From a virus, in IMG/VR virus record IMGVR_UViG_3300042549_009090, positions 1-23,410 of that record: DNA of 23,410 nt; one strand, 5' to 3'. This document shows positions 3,996-17,765 of the stretch, one piece after another. The position numbers and the translations under genes are program-made. Positions within the stretch are counted from its first letter, which is position 1, and every line of letters starts with the position of its first letter. A model generated the notes under the pieces. That model was not told where the DNA came from. It made no database searches and saw only the letters and a program-made list of their open reading frames with translations.

Positions 3996-4219
3996 TGAAA
4001 AAGATTTTTTTTAGTGTTTTTTTAATTCTTGTAACTTCATCTTGTGGATATAACGGAAGCTACAGGTATTCATGTCAGGACCCAGAGAATTGGGAAGACC
4101 CAAATTGTCATCCCCCTATTTGTTTAGTTGACAACATGTGCACCGAAATATTGCTTGGGTTTGACCCGACAGAAACAACCATAGAAATTACACGAGACAC
4201 AGGAGATTCAAATGGCTGA
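3995..4219 (+). CDS. Small secreted lipoprotein-like protein
   Basis: 74 residues. A basic start and hydrophobic core (MKKIFFSVFLILVTSSCG) end in a lipobox-like TSSC with Cys17 as the likely lipidated residue. The mature part is short, Cys/Pro-rich (CQDPENWEDPNCHPPIC) and ends in a Thr/Glu tail. The start overlaps the holin stop as TAATG. A small exported lipoprotein in a lysis cassette could act like an outer spanin or as a superinfection-exclusion lipoprotein. The lipobox is not ideal (no Leu at -3) and function is unknown. Confidence 0.65.
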   Translation: MKKIFFSVFLILVTSSCGYNGSYRYSCQDPENWEDPNCHPPICLVDNMCTEILLGFDPTETTIEITRDTGDSNG

Positions 4220-4886
4220 TAAAAATGGCGACGGGATTGTTTATCATCGTTCAGATTGTAGCGATGACTATGTGAGATGGTACGGCTTTGGTGGCGATGG
4301 TCCATGTTCAACTTGTGAGACATGGGGACTTGCTCCTGAGGCAATTAAGTACATCCATGACCATCCTGAAGTTAACCATAGGGTTGAAGACATTTTGGCT
4401 ATGGAATGGAACAAATATGTTCTTCCAGCACTTGAAGAAGGTTGGGAAAGAGTAGAAGTCGGCGTAAAGGATGCAGTCGCCTGGGTTGATGCAAACGCTT
4501 GCAACCTAGCAGTAACTGCGCTAGTCAATGGGTTGGTGCTTGCTGCATTTGGACCAGAACAACCTGAAGGTTTAGCAACATCTACCACTCTATCCGTGAT
4601 AGCACAAACAATAGACAAAGCAGAAAAAGCAGTCGTGGTGAAAGCAATGACTGAAATAATTGCTGATGCATTTTTGATGATACCCGAAGTCAGCAACAAT
4701 GTTGACCACTCACTATTGGACAACATAATTTCAAATTGTTTGGCTGAAGGTTTGAAACACCCAGAAGCGTGGGAAACGCCAGCAGGTGTTTGGCTTGCAA
4801 TCGGATGGGCGGTTTCGCCATTTATTTCAGATTTGATATGCAAGAAGACTTGCCCTGAAGGATTCACCAAGGCATTCGGTGCGTAA
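4212..4886 (+). CDS. Hypothetical protein with N-terminal Cys cluster and amphipathic/hydrophobic helices
   Basis: 224 residues, not recognised. The N-terminus has a Cys/His cluster (HRSDC, then CSTC, about residues 12-36) that may bind metal. The middle is helical with two hydrophobic stretches (CNLAVTALVNGLVLAAFGP and GVWLAIGWAVSPFISDLI), and there is a C-terminal Cys pair (CKKTC). It starts eight bases inside the lipoprotein gene with AGGAG upstream, and its stop abuts the next ATG, so it belongs to the same operon. Membrane association is plausible. Nothing supports a specific activity. Confidence 0.7.
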   Translation: MADKNGDGIVYHRSDCSDDYVRWYGFGGDGPCSTCETWGLAPEAIKYIHDHPEVNHRVEDILAMEWNKYVLPALEEGWERVEVGVKDAVAWVDANACNLAVTALVNGLVLAAFGPEQPEGLATSTTLSVIAQTIDKAEKAVVVKAMTEIIADAFLMIPEVSNNVDHSLLDNIISNCLAEGLKHPEAWETPAGVWLAIGWAVSPFISDLICKKTCPEGFTKAFGA

Positions 4887-8240: not shown

Positions 8241-8315
8241 TGGAGCCCTCGGTGGGAGTTGAACCCACGACCTACCGCTTACAAGGCGGTTGCTCTGCCA
8301 CTGAGCTACAAGGGC
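8241..8315 (-). tRNA. tRNA-Thr (anticodon UGU)
   Basis: 75 nt including an encoded 3' CCA. Acceptor GCCCTTG pairs with CGAGGGC (one G-U pair), the D arm is GCTC/GAGC, the anticodon stem is ACCGC/GCGGT with loop CTTGTAA giving anticodon TGT, and the T arm is GTGGG/CCCAC. All arms pair. Confidence 0.95.
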
Positions 8316-8379
8316 GAATCGTTGCACGATGTGTAATTTACGATACACATTGCCGGCTGGTGCGTGTAGTATTTGGTTA

Positions 8380-8532
8380 ATGAAAGAAAATTTGTCATTG
8401 TCTCAAATAGTTGAAAAGATAGCAGTCTGCAACCGCAAAATGGAGATTTTGGATTCTCGGATGGCTGAATTAGAAGACGAAATCGAACTACTAAAGGCAG
8501 AGCCAAATTATAGCACGGCTAAGAAAAAATAA
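8380..8532 (+). CDS. Small coiled-coil protein (50 residues), possibly leaderless
   Basis: Starting at the ATG at 8380, the product is MKENLSLSQIVEKIAVCNRK and continues as heptads (MEILDSRMAELEDEIELLKA) to a Lys-rich tail. A longer frame from 8329 has no ribosome site. No Shine-Dalgarno precedes 8380, but TAGTAT at 8367-8372 ends seven bases before the ATG, as in leaderless actinobacterial transcripts. It is probably a small dimeric coiled-coil protein; function unknown. Confidence 0.5.
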   Translation: MKENLSLSQIVEKIAVCNRKMEILDSRMAELEDEIELLKAEPNYSTAKKK

Positions 8533-8543
8533 CAATAAAGTGA

Positions 8544-8636
8544 CTAGTCAGCCCCTATAAAAATACATTCACCAGTGCACTCTTCGGCTGCCTCTATAAC
8601 GTCGTCACCAAGGCGGTCTTCTGCTGACTGAATGCC
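8544..8636 (-). pseudogene. 3' fragment of a second ferredoxin gene
   Basis: Read on the minus strand, this encodes SAEDRLGDDVIEAAEEC followed by TGECIFIGAD and a stop. It closely matches the end of the intact ferredoxin at 10631 (DDRLEDVIESAEEC, PGECIFIEVD). DNA similarity runs from about 8547 to 8625. An in-frame TAA lies just upstream (8637-8639) and no start codon or N-terminal half is present. It is a truncated copy, probably left by recombination. Confidence 0.8.
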
Positions 8637-8662
8637 TTATAAACAAAGGCTTAAAAAATAAG

Positions 8663-8691
8663 TTGTGTTTTAATTAAGGTCGCTGTATAGT
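8663..8691 (+). promoter_or_regulatory. Promoter TTGTGT-N17-TATAGT for the secreted-protein operon
   Basis: TTGTGT (8663-8668) and TATAGT (8686-8691) are separated by 17 bases, about 40 bases before the GTG start. The -10 is overlapped by the inverted repeat described next. Confidence 0.6.
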
Positions 8692-8717
8692 AGGAGTCTA
8701 CTAATAAATACCTACTA
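8688..8717 (+). promoter_or_regulatory. CTACTA repeats overlapping the -10, candidate operator
   Basis: TAGTAG-GAGT-CTACTA is a perfect 6-bp inverted repeat (8688-8703) overlapping the -10 and the likely transcription start. A third copy, CTACTA, follows at 8711-8716. The position suits a repressor site. Confidence 0.4.
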
Positions 8718-8731
8718 GAGAAAGATAAAAA

Positions 8732-10036
8732 GTGAAAAAACTATTGGCGTTTACCGTATTTGTTTTTGTTTCAATGTTTGCGTTTGCCTCGCCTGCTAAT
8801 GCCACATCTTGCGCAATCACTTCAGAATCCATTTCGCCTAGCTCTGCTGTTCTTTCTGCAGGTTCGACGGGAGTTACGTGGACAGTTTCGGCGTCATGCC
8901 AATCTCCATATATTCATAACACTGCAAATGCTTTAGGTTATTTATGCAATGGTGGTTCTTGTATTGCGGCAACAGCAACACCGGTCCGAAACTCATACAC
9001 CTACACATTTAGTTTTTTATTAAATCAAAGTTCCCCTGCTGGTGTTTGGACACCCAGAATGACCTTGTCTTCAAGCGATGGGGTGACCAAGTTTGATATA
9101 AGTTCAAACAGTTCTGTAGTTATTTCTTCTTATGTCGCACCAACTACAACAACTACCATTGCTCCAACTACTACGACTACTATTGCACCAACTGTTTGTA
9201 TAAAAAGTACTTCTGGACAACAAATTCATGACACTGTCACTTGGTTTTATTCTCCTAGTTCTGTACCCAATAATCCAGCTTACAAATCAATGTCTTTAGC
9301 TGTATGGCAATCTATGACGCATGAGCAAAAAATTAATTCCGGACCTTTGTATATGTCGCCTGCTCCGACTGGTGGTTGCAATCAGCTATATTCTTACCCA
9401 TCAGCTGTAACAACAACTACCACCGTTCCTGTGGCCACTGTGACGACTGTTGCTCCCGCCACTACCACCACACTCCCACGATGGCGTAATTATTGCCAAC
9501 CCTATAATGCCCACACGTGGCACCAAGCAACCCTTGATAGTTTGTATTACACCTATCCTCCTAGTGCGGTTTATCCAGTACCTGCTGGTGGTTGTTCTTC
9601 TCTGAATACAGTTCAAACTACAACTACAACTTCTGTTCCAGTTGTTCAACAAAAAACCCAAGTTGCCCCAACCCAAGTGGCAATTTTGCCAAAAGTTCAA
9701 CCTCCGGTAACAACTTCTCCAGTTATTCAATCTCCAGTAATAACTTTGCCAAAGACTATAAATCCAGGAGTTTCTGCCGCAATACCTGCAAAAGTGCCCT
9801 ATGTTGTGCCATGGAAATATGTGTGGATGAATAAAACATCCACCGCAAAAATAAAAACAGGGGCATTGTGTTTTAGCGGTAAGATTTCCACGGCCACGAG
9901 TTCAGGAGCATGCTCTCATAACGGTGGGGTAAAAAATTGGATTTACTATTCTACAAAATCTACCAGTAAGGTTAAATACAAATGCTGGTTGAATAAAAAT
10001 ACAAACACCTACAACAAAAACTGCATCGCAGTTTAA
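8732..10036 (+). CDS. Secreted modular protein with Thr-rich linkers and DUF3761-like C-terminus
   Basis: 434 residues from a GTG start with AGAGAAAG upstream. A clear signal peptide ends at FASPANA. An Ig-like domain follows (about 26-135), then Thr runs (TTTTTIAPTTTTTIAP), two related Cys/Tyr-rich modules (about 155-225, ending APTGGCNQLYSYPSA, and about 255-293, ending VPAGGCSSLN), and a Pro/Val/Gln stalk. The C-terminal module with SGACSHNGGVKNW resembles the DUF3761 signature (ACSxHGGV). Exported from the infected cell, it may bind the cell surface. Superinfection exclusion or aggregation are guesses. It is followed five bases later by a strong ribosome site for the next gene. Confidence 0.75.
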   Translation: MKKLLAFTVFVFVSMFAFASPANATSCAITSESISPSSAVLSAGSTGVTWTVSASCQSPYIHNTANALGYLCNGGSCIAATATPVRNSYTYTFSFLLNQSSPAGVWTPRMTLSSSDGVTKFDISSNSSVVISSYVAPTTTTTIAPTTTTTIAPTVCIKSTSGQQIHDTVTWFYSPSSVPNNPAYKSMSLAVWQSMTHEQKINSGPLYMSPAPTGGCNQLYSYPSAVTTTTTVPVATVTTVAPATTTTLPRWRNYCQPYNAHTWHQATLDSLYYTYPPSAVYPVPAGGCSSLNTVQTTTTTSVPVVQQKTQVAPTQVAILPKVQPPVTTSPVIQSPVITLPKTINPGVSAAIPAKVPYVVPWKYVWMNKTSTAKIKTGALCFSGKISTATSSGACSHNGGVKNWIYYSTKSTSKVKYKCWLNKNTNTYNKNCIAV

Positions 10037-10047
10037 GGAGAATGAAA

Positions 10048-10563
10048 ATGAAAATGAACATGAACATCAAACCTACATATATTGCGGCTATCGCCGTAGT
10101 TGTTTGTGGGTTCATCGGAACCATCTTCACGATGAAAAGCATTAACGACTCAAAAGATGCACTTATGATGCGCCTTGAAAAACAATCAGCAATCATTGAC
10201 CAGTACAACAAAGATTCACAAGAAAAACTTGATGGACTCAAAAGCGGTCAAGACACCTTGAATGAAAATGACAAGGTTCTGTCTGAACAAATTGCCGCTG
10301 TAGACGTAAAAATTGACGCACAAGGCTTGGCTTTGGGTTTAATGCAAGAGGATATTTTGGCTTTCAAAGAATCTATTAAAAACCTTGATGACACTGTCCG
10401 CGCAAACCAAACATTCATTTTAGGAGAATTGACAGGTCTTAAAAAGACCGTAGATGCTCTGCGAAATGCAGGGAATAACGCAATAACTGCACAGCAGGTA
10501 ATCCGCTATACCTCCTGTGCGGCCACTGGACAACAGTGCAACTGGATTATCGCAGGAAAGTAG
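10048..10563 (+). CDS. Membrane-anchored coiled-coil protein
   Basis: 171 residues from the second of several near-identical ATGs. AAGGAG at 10035-10040 is seven bases before 10048 but only one base before the ATG at 10042, so 10048 is preferred. One membrane segment lies near the N-terminus (YIAAIAVVVCGFIGTIFTM). A long helical, heptad-rich region (about 35-150) follows, with a C-terminal Cys pair in SCAATGQQC. It shares the operon with the secreted modular protein and may anchor or cooperate with it at the cell envelope. The function is unknown. Confidence 0.7.
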   Translation: MKMNMNIKPTYIAAIAVVVCGFIGTIFTMKSINDSKDALMMRLEKQSAIIDQYNKDSQEKLDGLKSGQDTLNENDKVLSEQIAAVDVKIDAQGLALGLMQEDILAFKESIKNLDDTVRANQTFILGELTGLKKTVDALRNAGNNAITAQQVIRYTSCAATGQQCNWIIAGK

Positions 10564-10581
10564 CACTCAAGTAAGGAAAAG

Positions 10582-10614
10582 TGGGCGTGGTGGGATTGAC
10601 TCTCATCACGCCCA
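10582..10614. terminator. Bidirectional hairpin between convergent operons
   Basis: A 14-bp stem (TGGGCGTGGTGGGA / TCTCATCACGCCCA, with two G-T pairs) and a TTGAC loop sit between the stop codons at 10563 and 10631. On the minus strand a CTTTTCC tract follows, so it suits the ferredoxin operon best. The plus-strand tail is less T-rich. Confidence 0.7.
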
Positions 10615-10630
10615 TTAATGAATAATCGCC

Positions 10631-10879
10631 TTAGTCAACTTCTATAAAAATGCACTCGCCAGGGCATTCCTCAGCCGACTCAATAACGTCTTCAAGCCTG
10701 TCGTCTAAGAAGGATGCTAATCCAGCCGCGCCTTCTGGGTTCCCCACAGCGGCCGCATAAATCTTGTCCCCTTCTTTTACATACGCAAGACCGTCCGGCA
10801 TCATATGAAAAACATCTGGGGCTATCTCCGCGCATAGTCCATCTCCAGTACATAGGTCTTGGTCAATCCAAACTCTCAT
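10631..10879 (-). CDS. Small 3Fe-4S-type ferredoxin
   Basis: 82 residues. MRVWIDQDLCTGDGLCAEIA and a distal AEECPGECIFIE match single-cluster ferredoxins of actinobacteria, often partners of cytochrome P450s. C10, C16 and C72 are the expected ligands. Asp replaces the middle Cys of a CxxCxxC motif, pointing to 3Fe-4S; C76 is extra. It should carry single electrons in the cytoplasm. Its ATG overlaps the stop of the aminopeptidase gene (ATGA). Its first 31 bases recur at 11709-11739 and a C-terminal fragment of a relative lies at 8544. The partner is unknown; the oxygenase at 13383 does not obviously need a ferredoxin. Confidence 0.9.
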   Translation of the reverse strand: MRVWIDQDLCTGDGLCAEIAPDVFHMMPDGLAYVKEGDKIYAAAVGNPEGAAGLASFLDDRLEDVIESAEECPGECIFIEVD

Positions 10880-10880
10880 T
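10850..10880 (-). repeat. 31-bp direct repeat, copy A (ferredoxin 5' end)
   Basis: The first eight to ten codons of the intact ferredoxin plus one upstream base. It matches 11709-11739 at 30 of 31 bases; the only difference is position 10872 (A) against 11731 (G). The two copies flank the aminopeptidase gene. Confidence 0.95.
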
Positions 10881-11712
10881 TTTTCCCTTTGGTGAGTGGT
10901 CCACCTGTCAATACATCAACACCAGTTTCAGTGACCAACACGGTGTGTTCAAATTGCGCGGTGCGCTTGCCGTCTGCGGTGACTGCTGTCCAGCCGTCGT
11001 TCCACATGCGGTGCTGCCATGTGCCAAGTGAAATCATCGGCTCAATCGTGAATGTCATGCCAGGGCGCATGATGGTGTTGTTGCTCTTGTCGTAGTAGTG
11101 CAACACCTGAATGTCGGTGTGAAACTGCTCGCCAATTCCGTGACCAACAAAGGCGCGAATAACGCTCATTTGGTCTTGTTTTGCTCGGGTTTCAATGGCT
11201 TTTCCAATGTCACTTAGTGGGCGACCAGGAACAACGGCTTCAATGCCGCGCCATGTGCACTCTTCGGTTACAGAAATTAGGTTGCGGCTCTCGTCGTCAA
11301 TCTCGCCTACTGCAAATGTTGCATTGGTGTCGCCATGAACGCCATTCATGTAGCACGTGACATCAAGGTTAATGATGTCGCCTTCTTGCAGTACGCGTGA
11401 ATCGGGAATTCCATGACAAATCACTTCGTTCACTGAAGTGCACGCACTCTTTGGATAGCCTAAATAATTCAATGGGCTCGGGTATGCACCGCGCTCGATG
11501 CACAAGTTGTGCACATAAACATCAATGTCATCCGTCGTAATTCCTGGACGAACAAATTCTCCTGCAAGGCGCAGTACTTCTGCAGCAGCAGAACATGCAA
11601 TGCGCATGCGTTCAATAATTTCAGGTGACTTCACTGCAGATTCTTGCCAGCGCGTGACCTTGCCAGTCTCTGCGTACGGCGGCTTCACAATGTGGTCAGG
11701 AACGCTCAACAT
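10876..11712 (-). CDS. map: Methionine aminopeptidase (type I, actinobacterial form)
   Basis: 278 residues, full length. An N-terminal extension with a PPYAETGKVTR segment, as in actinobacterial type Ic enzymes, precedes the pita-bread domain. All metal ligands are recognisable: Asp in INLDVTCYMNGVHGD (two Asp), His in VGHGIGEQFH, Glu in FTIEPM and Glu in AQFEHTVLV; the usual substrate-side His is in NEVICHG. It removes initiator Met when the next residue is small. The ATG lies inside direct-repeat copy B, with no Shine-Dalgarno. It overlaps the stop of a 10-codon leader (ATGTTGA), so reinitiation is likely. The stop overlaps the ferredoxin ATG. It is likely a host-derived gene. A proteasome-like Met-Thr protein in this window is a plausible substrate. 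Confidence 0.95.
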   Translation of the reverse strand: MLSVPDHIVKPPYAETGKVTRWQESAVKSPEIIERMRIACSAAAEVLRLAGEFVRPGITTDDIDVYVHNLCIERGAYPSPLNYLGYPKSACTSVNEVICHGIPDSRVLQEGDIINLDVTCYMNGVHGDTNATFAVGEIDDESRNLISVTEECTWRGIEAVVPGRPLSDIGKAIETRAKQDQMSVIRAFVGHGIGEQFHTDIQVLHYYDKSNNTIMRPGMTFTIEPMISLGTWQHRMWNDGWTAVTADGKRTAQFEHTVLVTETGVDVLTGGPLTKGKK

Positions 11713-11738
11713 AGGTCTTGGTCAATCCAAGCTCTCAT
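11706..11738 (-). CDS. 10-residue leader peptide, relic of a ferredoxin start
   Basis: An ATG at 11738, overlapping the stop of the upstream gene as TAATG, opens MRAWIDQDLC and then TGA. These are nine of the first ten ferredoxin residues, with one change (V3A). The aminopeptidase ATG lies within its last codons (ATGTTGA). It may be a residue of gene insertion that now couples translation. Confidence 0.5.
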   Translation of the reverse strand: MRAWIDQDLC

Positions 11739-11739
11739 T
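11709..11739 (-). repeat. 31-bp direct repeat, copy B (upstream of aminopeptidase)
   Basis: A near-perfect copy of 10850-10880, containing both the start of the leader peptide and the start of the aminopeptidase. Confidence 0.95.
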
Positions 11740-11920
11740 AACTTGCGTTCTTTGATTTACAGTTTTTATGACAGTGACAACCTTTTGATTTTTTCCACAT
11801 CCAAAAATGATGGGCAGCCATTAACACCATCAATGCCCACATTAAGTTCATTTCGCTAATCATTAAAAAATTAGATGTGGATGAGTGGTCGTGATTCATA
11901 TGGTTAATCCAGACTTTCAT
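11738..11920 (-). CDS. His/Met/Cys-rich single-TM peptide
   Basis: 60 residues. The start MKVWINHMNHDH resembles the ferredoxin start (MRVWIDQ). A Met-rich membrane segment follows (MISEMNLMWALMVLMAAHHF), then WMWKKSKGCHCHKNC. The density of His, Met and Cys on both sides of one membrane span suggests binding of a soft metal such as copper, but no family is recognised. The start overlaps the preceding gene's stop as TAATG and its own stop overlaps the leader ATG as TAATG. It lies in one unit with aminopeptidase and ferredoxin, both metal-dependent. Confidence 0.65.
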   Translation of the reverse strand: MKVWINHMNHDHSSTSNFLMISEMNLMWALMVLMAAHHFWMWKKSKGCHCHKNCKSKNAS

Positions 11921-11921
11921 T
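11902..11921 (-). repeat. Third, diverged copy of the ferredoxin-start repeat
   Basis: The 20 bases around the start of the His/Met-rich gene match those around the ferredoxin start at 17 of 20 positions. Three consecutive genes thus begin with the same sequence. Confidence 0.7.
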
Positions 11922-12558
11922 ATTCCTCGGTTACTTCAATATCGTAGTAATACTCATCATTATCAGCTGTCCGCCATTTTTTGGCATCTTCAACATCCCA
12001 CAATCTTGTATTTACTAATCGCTTTATAAGATTACCGTCTTTAGTGGTAAATGATGGGTCAAACAATCTAACCCTGTTGTTTGGCTGAATGGCAAAGTTC
12101 CCATCATCTCTCAGCATTACATGTCCGCATTTGTGTTGACCTGGGTTAACGCTAAAACCAAGATTGATTACATTGTCGTCTGGTGCATGCCAATCGAGTG
12201 TAAATAGATATCTTCCATTTACAAATTCACCACTTCTGGCCACGTACGTCATTCGCATGTTTCGCATTGCCTGAAATTCGGTGACGGTTATGTGTGCGCT
12301 AAATGAATTCCATAAAACCAAATCGTGTATATCCACCTCTGGAACATTAGGCTCCGAACAAAAGGCCGATATCGGCATTCTCCACCAGACACCACCATCT
12401 TCCATCAAGAAATGAAACAGTGGAGAGCGTCCCTGAATTGATGTAACCCCAAATATCACGCATGGGAAATACTGCTCATGGGAGTCTTTTTGATTTCTGA
12501 GATAATTGCCGCGGACATAGCATTCTATTTGCGGAGTGTTTGCGTTTAGTTCCGGCAT
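11920..12558 (-). CDS. Conserved phage protein of unknown function
   Basis: 212 residues. It starts MPELNANTPQIECYVRGNYL and contains FPCVIFGVTSIQGRSPLFHF, HKCGHVMLRDDGNFAIQPNN and RVRLFDPSFTT. I recognise this as a protein common in marine and freshwater phages, including cyanophages, with no known function. It is soluble and beta-rich with no catalytic signature I can name. It is first in the unit that runs through the His/Met peptide, aminopeptidase and ferredoxin. Its stop overlaps the next start as TAATG. The tRNA-Asn gene lies 17 bases upstream, so transcription probably comes through the tRNA. Confidence 0.8.
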   Translation of the reverse strand: MPELNANTPQIECYVRGNYLRNQKDSHEQYFPCVIFGVTSIQGRSPLFHFLMEDGGVWWRMPISAFCSEPNVPEVDIHDLVLWNSFSAHITVTEFQAMRNMRMTYVARSGEFVNGRYLFTLDWHAPDDNVINLGFSVNPGQHKCGHVMLRDDGNFAIQPNNRVRLFDPSFTTKDGNLIKRLVNTRLWDVEDAKKWRTADNDEYYYDIEVTEE

Positions 12559-12575
12559 TTGCCTATTTTACACCT

Positions 12576-12651
12576 TGGCTGGGGAGGTAGGGCTCGAACC
12601 TACGACAAGCGGATTAACAGTCCGCTGCTCTGCCAACTGAGCTACTCCCCA
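12576..12651 (-). tRNA. tRNA-Asn (anticodon GUU)
   Basis: 76 nt including encoded CCA. Acceptor TGGGGAG/CTCCCCA, D arm GCTC/GAGC, anticodon stem GCGGA/TCCGC with loop CTGTTAA, T arm GTAGG/CCTAC and discriminator G. It lies seven bases after the thyX stop, so it is probably cut from a shared transcript. Confidence 0.96.
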
Positions 12652-12658
12652 ATGTTCT

Positions 12659-13324
12659 TTATGGAGTCACACGGGCGTTATCAATCCATGCATCGTATGT
12701 AGCGGGCATTTGTCTTTTGAAAATTTCTTCAACTTCTTTTGCGTAGAGACGAATGTCAATCTGAGCAGCGTCGTGATTTCTGAGCGAAAGGAAGTTCATT
12801 AGGGCCCGGGCATTGACTGTCCAGTAGAACTGCGTATACATGCTTACTGGCAGAACAACTCTTGCCAGCTCCTTTGCTACACCCTTTTCGACTAGTTGTT
12901 GATATGCCTCGTAGCAGTACGCGTTTACTTCTTCAATGTGCAGAATCGTGTGTTCGGCTAATTCCTCTTCGACGGGCTCGAATTTATACGCTCCCGGTTT
13001 GCCGGCTTGAGTGCGCACATGCTTTTTCTCTGGCGCAAAGAAATCGTCTTCAACAAAGCTGTACCTCGCAGAAAACTCATTAAATGAACCGATGCGGTGG
13101 CGGAACCATTCTCGGGCAACAAACAGCGGACACTTGACATGAAATCTAAACGAGTTATGTTCAAATGGGGTTCCGTGTCTTTCCCTCATTAAGAAATTGA
13201 TAAGTCCCTTTGCTTTATCATCTAGTTCTTCTGATGACTGAGCAAAAGAAACTCGAGCAGAGTTAACCACCGAAAGGTCGTCTGCCATGCAGCCATCGAG
13301 CCGGACAAAACCGAATTCACTCAT
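12659..13324 (-). CDS. thyX: Flavin-dependent thymidylate synthase
   Basis: 221 residues, full length. The ThyX signature RHRxxSxNExSxRYS is exact at residues 75-89 (RHRIGSFNEFSARYS). The C-terminal region has SMYTQFYWTVNARALMNFLS and LRNHDAAQIDIR, which place the dUMP and FAD ligands. It makes dTMP from dUMP with methylenetetrahydrofolate, NADPH and FAD, supplying thymidine for phage DNA. AAGGAG precedes the ATG. It is sandwiched between tRNA-Arg and tRNA-Asn on the same strand. Confidence 0.97.
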   Translation of the reverse strand: MSEFGFVRLDGCMADDLSVVNSARVSFAQSSEELDDKAKGLINFLMRERHGTPFEHNSFRFHVKCPLFVAREWFRHRIGSFNEFSARYSFVEDDFFAPEKKHVRTQAGKPGAYKFEPVEEELAEHTILHIEEVNAYCYEAYQQLVEKGVAKELARVVLPVSMYTQFYWTVNARALMNFLSLRNHDAAQIDIRLYAKEVEEIFKRQMPATYDAWIDNARVTP

Positions 13325-17069: not shown

Positions 17070-17765
17070 ATGACAACCATAGTGGCAATACAGGGAGATG
17101 GCTTTGCTGTAGTAACAGCTGACTCAAGAATCGTTTCCATGATGGAGAACGGAGCAACATCAGCTATCTCCCACTTGGGTGGCAATCTATCCAAGGTCTC
17201 TCAGAATGGACCTTATCTTCTGGGGGCAGCTGGAGATGTGAGAGCAATCAATATCTTGCATCACGCATTCACTCCACCTACACCTCCAAGTAACTTGAAG
17301 GGCAAAAAGCTTGACGCCTTTATTACCAATAAGTTCATACCAGTACTGAGGGAGACGTTCGAAAAGCAGGGATACGCCACTCCAGAACGAGAAGCTTCTC
17401 ATATCGCACAACATGATTCAACCGTTCTGGTAGTGATACATGGTGTTGTATATGTGCTTGACGGAGACTATGCATGGTGCTCTGACTCAAATGGGTATTA
17501 CGCAATTGGCTCAGGTGGAGACTACGCACTAGGCGCGCTTCACGTCCTACTCAATAAGAAAAAGTCACTTGACATACCAGCAGCAAGAGGTGCAGCCACA
17601 AAAGCCATATCAACAGCAGCAAAATACGATGTTCACACAGGTGCCCCATACCACACCTATGTACAAGATAGTTCCGGCACGAAAGACAAACAACCGATAC
17701 CGATAAAGAAAGTTAGTCAAAATGCCGGACGAACAAGAAATAACAAACGCACCAACAGCAAGTGA
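17070..17765 (+). CDS. Proteasome-beta/HslV-like Ntn hydrolase
   Basis: 231 residues beginning MTTIVAIQGDGFAVVTADSR. Counting Thr2 as residue 1, Asp17 falls exactly where proteasome beta and HslV have it. LSKV gives the catalytic Lys (position 41, after an eight-residue insert). GPYLLGAAGD matches the PYLLGxxAG turn, AIGSGGDYALGALH matches the GSG (Ser129) motif, and AAKYDVHTGAPYHTY matches the Asp166 region. There is no propeptide, so Met removal would expose Thr1, as in HslV. The C-terminus is a basic tail (about 35 residues) not seen in proteasomes. Relatives occur in actinophage genomes, uncharacterised as far as I know. It could degrade host or phage proteins. Confidence 0.85.
   Translation: MTTIVAIQGDGFAVVTADSRIVSMMENGATSAISHLGGNLSKVSQNGPYLLGAAGDVRAINILHHAFTPPTPPSNLKGKKLDAFITNKFIPVLRETFEKQGYATPEREASHIAQHDSTVLVVIHGVVYVLDGDYAWCSDSNGYYAIGSGGDYALGALHVLLNKKKSLDIPAARGAATKAISTAAKYDVHTGAPYHTYVQDSSGTKDKQPIPIKKVSQNAGRTRNNKRTNSK

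Follow-up and report, generated by a model that had tools for sequence, protein, structure and literature searches.

Probable recombination at a ferredoxin gene start and spread of a host-derived methionine aminopeptidase gene among phages

How does a bacterial gene come to lie in a phage genome between two copies of the start of another gene, and does it move on from there? The question arises from viral DNA in IMG/VR (record IMGVR_UViG_3300042549_009090), whose whole analysed stretch of 23,410 nucleotides we call the window. An earlier note, made from the letters alone, held that a methionine aminopeptidase (MetAP) gene is flanked by direct repeats of the start of a ferredoxin (Fd) gene and lies exactly between them, with a ten-codon remnant upstream and a start codon built from Fd codons. 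All four statements hold: of the 31 bases at 10850-10880 and at 11709-11739, 30 are the same, MetAP runs from 11712 to 10876 on the minus strand with its TGA stop overlapping the Fd ATG (aATGa), the remnant MRAWIDQDLC with its stop occupies 11738-11706, and the MetAP ATG falls in Fd codons 9-10 (ccTATGt). In a self-comparison of the 23,410-base window, this repeat pair is the top off-diagonal match (E 1.4e-7). The features of the region are as follows.

8241-8315, minus strand: tRNA-Thr, one border of a variable block
8545-8607, minus strand: remnant of the 3' end of a former resident Fd, 78% identical in nucleotides over 63 to the present Fd
8732-10036, plus strand: ORF of 434 aa within the variable block, on the opposite strand; the block is absent from locus L023
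10042-10563, plus strand: ORF of 173 aa within the variable block, on the opposite strand; the block is absent from L023
10631-10879, minus strand: ferredoxin, 82 aa (Fer4_15, 3.2e-16)
10850-10880, minus strand: right repeat copy, the start of the intact ferredoxin, read from the sequence
10876-10899, minus strand: C-terminal tail of MetAP, PLTKGKK and stop, in place of the host tail; resembles the phage gene end GGPITKEK and stop
10876-11712, minus strand: MetAP, type I catalytic domain (Pfam Peptidase_M24, 4e-51)
11706-11738, minus strand: ten-codon leader ORF, MRAWIDQDLC and stop, its end overlapping the MetAP start (ATGTTGA), read from the sequence
11709-11739, minus strand: left repeat copy, an orphan Fd start of codons 1-10 with V3A, 30/31 identical to 10850-10880
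11738-11920, minus strand: orf60, an ORF of 60 aa with the Fd-like start MKVWINH at 11920; second cassette
11920-12558, minus strand: up212, a 212-aa protein, phrog_3704 (moron category), first gene of the inserted block
12576-12651, minus strand: tRNA-Asn, the other border of the variable block

From up212 to Fd, each of the five minus-strand frames overlaps the next, stop on start (TAATG at up212/orf60 and at orf60/leader, ATGTTGA at leader/MetAP, AATGA at MetAP/Fd), and these overlaps suggest that MetAP is transcribed together with its neighbours. Three features go beyond the earlier note: the Fd 3' remnant at 8607-8545, the Fd-like start of orf60, which reads MKVWIDH in loci L057, L083 and L091, and the host origin of MetAP. 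The comparison of base composition that the note had proposed is uninformative, as a GC content of 0.503 in MetAP, 0.49 in Fd and 0.464 in the window does not mark the gene out. The phrog_3704 match of up212 carries the label ferredoxin but comes with no Pfam match; the label may stem from a neighbouring gene. The same phage also encodes an HslV-like peptidase family protein at 17070-17765 (phrog_1040, 8.3e-26).

The MetAP of the window is a type I enzyme (M24A) by its full-domain fold and its similarity to solved MetAPs: the Peptidase_M24 profile is covered over 1-208 of 208 (Pfam 4e-51), and residues 2-269 match the MetAP structures 8yp6, 4ook and 3pka with E down to 2.5e-96. Residues D117, D128, H191, E224 and E255, which we take, by the motifs of the family, to be the five metal ligands (D, D, H, E, E), are invariant across an alignment of four sequences. 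Among the best 80 of at least 531 relatives in the genome collection, the closest belongs to an acIV actinobacterium (L180; 96% aa over residues 1-271, 88.4% nt), and the next to an uncultured Acidimicrobium (L181; 93% aa). The host L180 protein is longer, with a SEC-C motif in front (1.7e-8) and the terminus TGAASPFAPWNR. No SEC-C motif was found in the phage MetAP at E 0.1, and with no such motif at its N terminus the phage protein falls outside the SEC-C-bearing actinobacterial MetAPs; it starts at an internal Met of the host frame (SPMLTVPDH in the host, MLSVPDH in the phage). At the other end, seven loci (L022, L024, L025, L030, L031, L042 and L052) have an unrelated phage gene ending in GGPITKEK immediately ahead of Fd, a GGPITREK variant of the same gene ends before Fd in L040, and a GGPITKEK-like ending precedes the Fd start and MetAP in L015. 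By a match of about nine residues, the MetAP tail looks like one swapped for the end of this phage gene. These comparisons suggest that MetAP was taken from an acIV (Acidimicrobiia) host and cut down to its catalytic domain.

Two full-length alleles, those of the window and of locus L009, are 95.4% identical and differ mostly at synonymous sites (dN 0.012, dS 0.18), so the protein appears to be maintained by selection. Judging by the MetAP donor, the carrier phages probably infect acIV (Acidimicrobiia) bacteria of freshwater lakes; an Fd 71-74% identical is also present in the five host-type genomes searched. Loci L005-L008 proved to hold other MetAPs (74-77% aa), and the exact Fd-start core was not found in the whole records of L005 and L007. 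Among 50,697 INPHARED phage records, MetAP-like genes match 39, all below 60% identity and some of them bacterial by name, and no Fd relatives were found at E 1e-5; 512 IMG/VR stretches encode Fd relatives.

A protein search of IMG/VR with MetAP gave 14 loci, 10 of them phage-type. Eight of these ten reach the 5' end of MetAP, and the Fd start lies directly in front in all eight, whole in L003, L004 and L013-L016, and with its last 23 nt only in L009 and L012. With the window included, MetAP stands in six settings on the left: window/L003/L004, L009/L012, L013, L014, L015 and L016. On the right, an Fd start lies behind MetAP in 5/5 protein-search loci that reach the 3' end, and six settings are again seen: the window, L011 and L028, in which different Fd alleles follow, and L009/L163, L117/L161 and L010. 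L028, L117, L161 and L163 came from searches with Fd or its start, not from the MetAP protein search, and L009/L163 (99.98% identical) and L117/L161 (99.9%) are each counted once. Since contigs break at MetAP, a left and a right setting may come from one genome. The joins thus carry the boundary homology of a moron, with a whole or partial Fd start at 8/8 left ends and an Fd start at 5/5 right ends.

Across the six settings the left end of MetAP does not shift by a single base, and two Fd-start variants, with CCT or CTT before the ATG, extend to 2 nt from it. The contigs of L012-L016 stop 73-122 nt inside MetAP, leaving these joins visible from one side only; five joins near contig ends are expected of a gene present in many settings. 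Non-window alleles are 98-100% identical to that of L009, but the stretches compared are mostly gene ends of 73-235 nt (531 nt in L010), over which the window allele is also 95-99% identical. MetAP ends are joined to something other than a whole Fd at the left of L009/L012 and at the right of L009, L010 and L117, so some moves were not from Fd to Fd. In L009 (9600-10004 and 10857-11750), a holin-like gene (GVIGAG) is split by MetAP, and diverged copies of the genes that precede MetAP appear again behind it, as if two related phages had been joined out of register.

The earlier note had called for a comparison of the locus with and without MetAP. We compared the last 300 nt of each left flank with loci L003-L179 and found that the flanks of five of the six settings run straight into Fd without MetAP elsewhere. 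The window flank, which carries MetAP in the window, L003 and L004, is empty in L057, L083 and L091, where orf60 joins Fd directly (91.6-94.2% over 188-190 nt). The flank of L013 is empty in 8 loci (85-88% among the six matches listed), that of L015 in 10 (77-83% over about 100 nt among the six matches listed), and that of L014 in 3, a weak match (69%) that shows gene order rather than a close relative. For the L009/L012 flank, no empty counterpart was found among L003-L179. The closest pair is L016 and the empty L128 (98.7% over 306 nt), which are identical through ATGAAAGTTTGGATTGACCAA, 21 nt inside the Fd start, and then diverge into MetAP or Fd, which places the exchange within this start. 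The likeness of their flanks extends over 1.2 kb only (95.5%) and is lost farther out, so the two are related at this locus without being isogenic phages; the L016 contig does not include the right side of its join, and the comparison concerns the left side. Presence and absence at one locus is thus seen for the window against L057, L083 and L091, for L016 against L128 (left side), and for the whole block, which is absent from L023. Together with five further left settings behind a whole or partial Fd start, the filled and empty flanks support well the insertion by short-homology recombination that the note had proposed.

The last event in the window itself was of another kind. L023 lacks the block but matches the window to either side of it, over 5.0 kb at 97.8% and over 3.5 kb at 96.2%, and has an intact Fd directly after tRNA-Asn; in the window, the ATG of up212 takes the place of the L023 Fd ATG. 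The Fd front is replaced by a block of about 4 kb (up212, orf60, leader, MetAP and Fd, plus the two opposite-strand ORFs), and the remnant at 8545-8607 aligns with the end of the intact L023 Fd. Since MetAP lies within a block absent from this close relative, the last event here was block replacement and not MetAP insertion. The stretch differs in more than the block, as L023 carries another opposite-strand ORF behind its Fd that is missing from the window. The Fd now behind MetAP is 79-86% identical in nucleotides to the Fds of the empty sites and 93% to that of L020, and on these identities it is not native to that flank. The variable region, from up212 to the old Fd tail, lies within 8241-12651 between tRNA-Asn and tRNA-Thr, and L023 holds both tRNA-bordering sequences with different content between them.

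At least two genes other than MetAP also sit behind orphan Fd starts. An Fd-like start precedes orf60 in L057, L083 and L091, 176-182 nt ahead of Fd; a degenerate one, at position 9200 of L016, precedes a homologue of the window gene at 4212-4886; and in L117/L161 a two-gene module follows MetAP behind an Fd-like start, ahead of Fd. As a control, we counted orphan copies of the starts of 37 window genes, with all alleles, across 88 loci (791 kb). Fd starts occur at 16 orphan sites, which amount to 10 distinct joins (L004 repeats the window and L012 repeats L009): 8 at MetAP ends, 1 at orf60 in five loci, and 1 at L016 9200. Similarly sampled gene starts gave 0-1 orphans (holin-like 0, nuclease 1, o74 0, TauD 0). 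Two genes scored high for other reasons: orf60 (67) itself begins with an Fd start, and for o99 (16) the start had been confused with the 3' end of o74, the gene before it. Fourteen of the 16 o99 matches are a stretch that reads as the o74 3' end in the translated loci L029, L067, L072 and L084, with genes other than o99 following in L029 and L084; the remaining two (L063, L090) are on the minus strand, far from o99. Eight matches of Fd 151-180, of 19-21 nt, were read as chance, and those of Fd 181-240 (2 and 3) are the Fd tail remnant of the window and its L004 copy. The control is biased because its loci were chosen by MetAP or Fd, and it therefore compares genes within one sample and gives no genome-wide rate; most orphan sites are present because MetAP brought the locus in. 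A first control, underpowered because it was limited to the window's own start sequences, gave Fd 14, orf60 29, TKAFGA 2, MetAP 1, HslV 1 and all others 0. Both controls left out L003, L005-L008, L017 and L018.

A pattern scan for Fd starts that lack the usual next Fd codon returned 73 stretches, judged by eye: those of L010, L117, L128, L159, L161 and L163 were kept, and the other 67 were taken for chance matches. A second pattern returned seven stretches, of which those in L015, L097 and L103 are known joins, those in L176 (371) and L179 (6365, minus strand) are an Fd without its middle, with the start MKVWIDQDLC joined to the Fd-like end CIFLET, and those in L177 and L178 were set aside as unrelated. 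Where the core of the Fd start is found, a record holds one or two exact copies. Fd is not alone in having variable joins: in the four loci translated, at least three different genes come after the end of o74. This conserved 3' end leads into o99, a 175-aa type ORF or an endolysin-like ORF (L029 3277-3390; L072 4390-4520; L084 4216-4340). A hyperconserved docking signal was considered and rejected, as normalised synonymous diversity among 58 Fd alleles is ordinary over codons 2-10 (0.43, against 0.46 over codons 11-20 and 0.36 over 41-50).

Taken together, we give a probability of about 0.75 to the reading that MetAP is mobile phage cargo, captured at microhomology, spread by short-homology recombination at Fd starts and retained where the coupled overlaps are kept. 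The start within the host frame and the likeness of PLTKGKK to GGPITKEK make it look as if the capture had joined host DNA at CCnATGTTGA (left) and at TGGYGG (right). Microhomology recombination would have paired host CCAATGTTGA with Fd CCTATGT on the left and used TGGYGG near the end of the phage gene preceding Fd on the right, duplicating about 55 nt, the first ten Fd codons included; from the matching ends, this looks like an event inside a phage that carried the GGPITKEK-ending gene followed by Fd. The gene would then spread to other phages when two of them co-infect a cell and their Fd starts, of about 20-30 nt, undergo homologous recombination, perhaps through strand annealing; this would leave an orphan Fd start in front of the cargo. 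Retained joins would keep the overlaps TAATG, ATGTTGA and AATGA with Fd intact, and a stop/start overlap kept at each join means that cargo could be translated from the Fd initiation region. In the window, the cassette would have come inside the block of about 4 kb that overwrote the front of the resident Fd. Thus, a short coding stretch at the Fd start seems to offer new genes a place to dock.

The fixed left end of MetAP in six settings, the Fd-start variants reaching within 2 nt of it and the presence of more than one gene behind Fd starts would also suit an endonuclease or recombinase, encoded elsewhere, that cuts or joins at Fd codon 10 with MetAP as its cargo, as in homing or integron capture. 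We consider this unlikely. A single origin followed by homologous exchange also yields a fixed left end, L016 and L128 exchange after 21 nt, inside the repeat, and the ends in L009 and L010 lie in other sequence. The unit holds MetAP only and so is no transposon or IS element; three inverted-repeat pairs were found in 10000-13000, none at the ends of the MetAP unit, and no homing endonuclease gene was found among the Pfam matches of six block proteins. No tyrosine integrase was found in eight long records, which may be incomplete, and MetAP does not qualify as an integron cassette. RecA is present in 3 of the 8 long records and a PDDEXK_1 nuclease in 7, neither of them tied to the event. Given the homology at the joins, the exchange inside the repeat, the lack of a tyrosine integrase in those eight records and of transposon ends, and the ordinary conservation of the Fd start, we favour plain recombination at short homology, with selection for starts that stay intact and coupled, by a recombination enzyme whose part we infer.

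Fd might instead be the mobile gene, inserting beside other genes and later lost to leave its starts behind, with MetAP an ordinary resident. The ORFs that abut Fd upstream do fall into 12 families, one of them doubtful (72 of 84 Fd copies usable), and Fd remnants are seen at window 8545-8607, at L016 9200 and, with the middle missing, in L176/L179. This reading is improbable, for MetAP is of recent host origin and its flanks differ on both sides, whereas L016 and L128 keep the left flank and Fd start and swap MetAP for Fd; mobility of Fd may be true as well and would not replace MetAP insertion. Slightly less credit goes to assemblers having jumped between phages at the shared Fd start of about 30 nt, which would make most settings false. 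L012-L016 do stop soon after the join, but both joins are covered by the window, L003 and L004, whose records are at least 99.9% identical, and by L009, in a 158-kb record whose right side recurs in L163 (99.98%); L117 and L161 agree (99.9%), and the joins of L009 and L010 are not simple jumps between two Fd starts. Least credible of all, and very improbable, is that the repeat is kept as a shared translation-initiation element and is no trace of recombination. It does lie at starts and gives coupled overlaps, but it is missing from the other well-sampled gene starts in these loci, movement is evident from empty sites and flank swaps, and synonymous conservation of the Fd start is ordinary.

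In integrons, single genes are captured side by side at one docking point, and the Fd start resembles them in taking up single genes adjacently; unlike integrons, these phages show no tyrosine integrase in any of the eight long records, and the joins fit plain homology. Tandem cargo is seen as orf60 with MetAP (window), the homologue of 4212-4886 with MetAP (L016), and MetAP with the two-gene module (L117). That the Fd start is a built-in gene-capture port, an integrase-free integron analogue in which coupled cargo accumulates in tandem, Fd is regenerated behind it and cargo is exchanged between phages, is a tentative idea that we hold to be doubtful. T4-type phages reportedly have mobile cassettes with genes shuffled at small repeated sequences (Arbiol et al. 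2010), and these are said to be regulatory, with promoters or terminators; the docking point at Fd differs in being a translation start with codons.

The literature searched, mostly as titles and abstract openings, yielded no description of this arrangement. Nearest to it is gene 68 of Island3, a Cluster I mycobacteriophage: a near-identical phage lacks this gene, which is bounded by a direct repeat of about 50-60 bp belonging to an adjacent coding sequence, and the arrangement is explained there as recombination between the two repeats (PMC3029335). Both cases show presence or absence of a gene bounded by repeated coding sequence; as described there, Island3 involves one event at gene 3' ends, whereas in the MetAP case a single coding start is used repeatedly, in several phage settings and by more genes than one, and a likely source of the cargo is known. 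Start Associated Sequences of Cluster K mycobacteriophages are likewise short repeats at gene starts, and are described as 13-bp repeats upstream of the starts, 11-19 per genome (PMC3203893), in contrast to the Fd-start repeat, which is coding sequence of one gene with one or two exact-core copies per record. The arrangement is thus a variation on the moron and boundary-sequence mosaicism already known in phages; new here is one coding start repeatedly used as a joining point, together with a donor and with filled and empty sites.

The uptake and passing-on of host genes by phages has mostly been inferred from old, eroded joins. Here, several of the steps are still readable: the host donor is close, the capture joins can be seen, sites with matching flanks exist both filled and empty, and a single gene recurs in several settings. 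This makes a long-standing question testable by reads from known samples, namely whether short homologies direct the shuffling of phage genes or joining is random and then sorted by selection. The finding also points to acIV actinobacteria as the hosts of a group of large phages that is unmatched in the phage-record collection searched.
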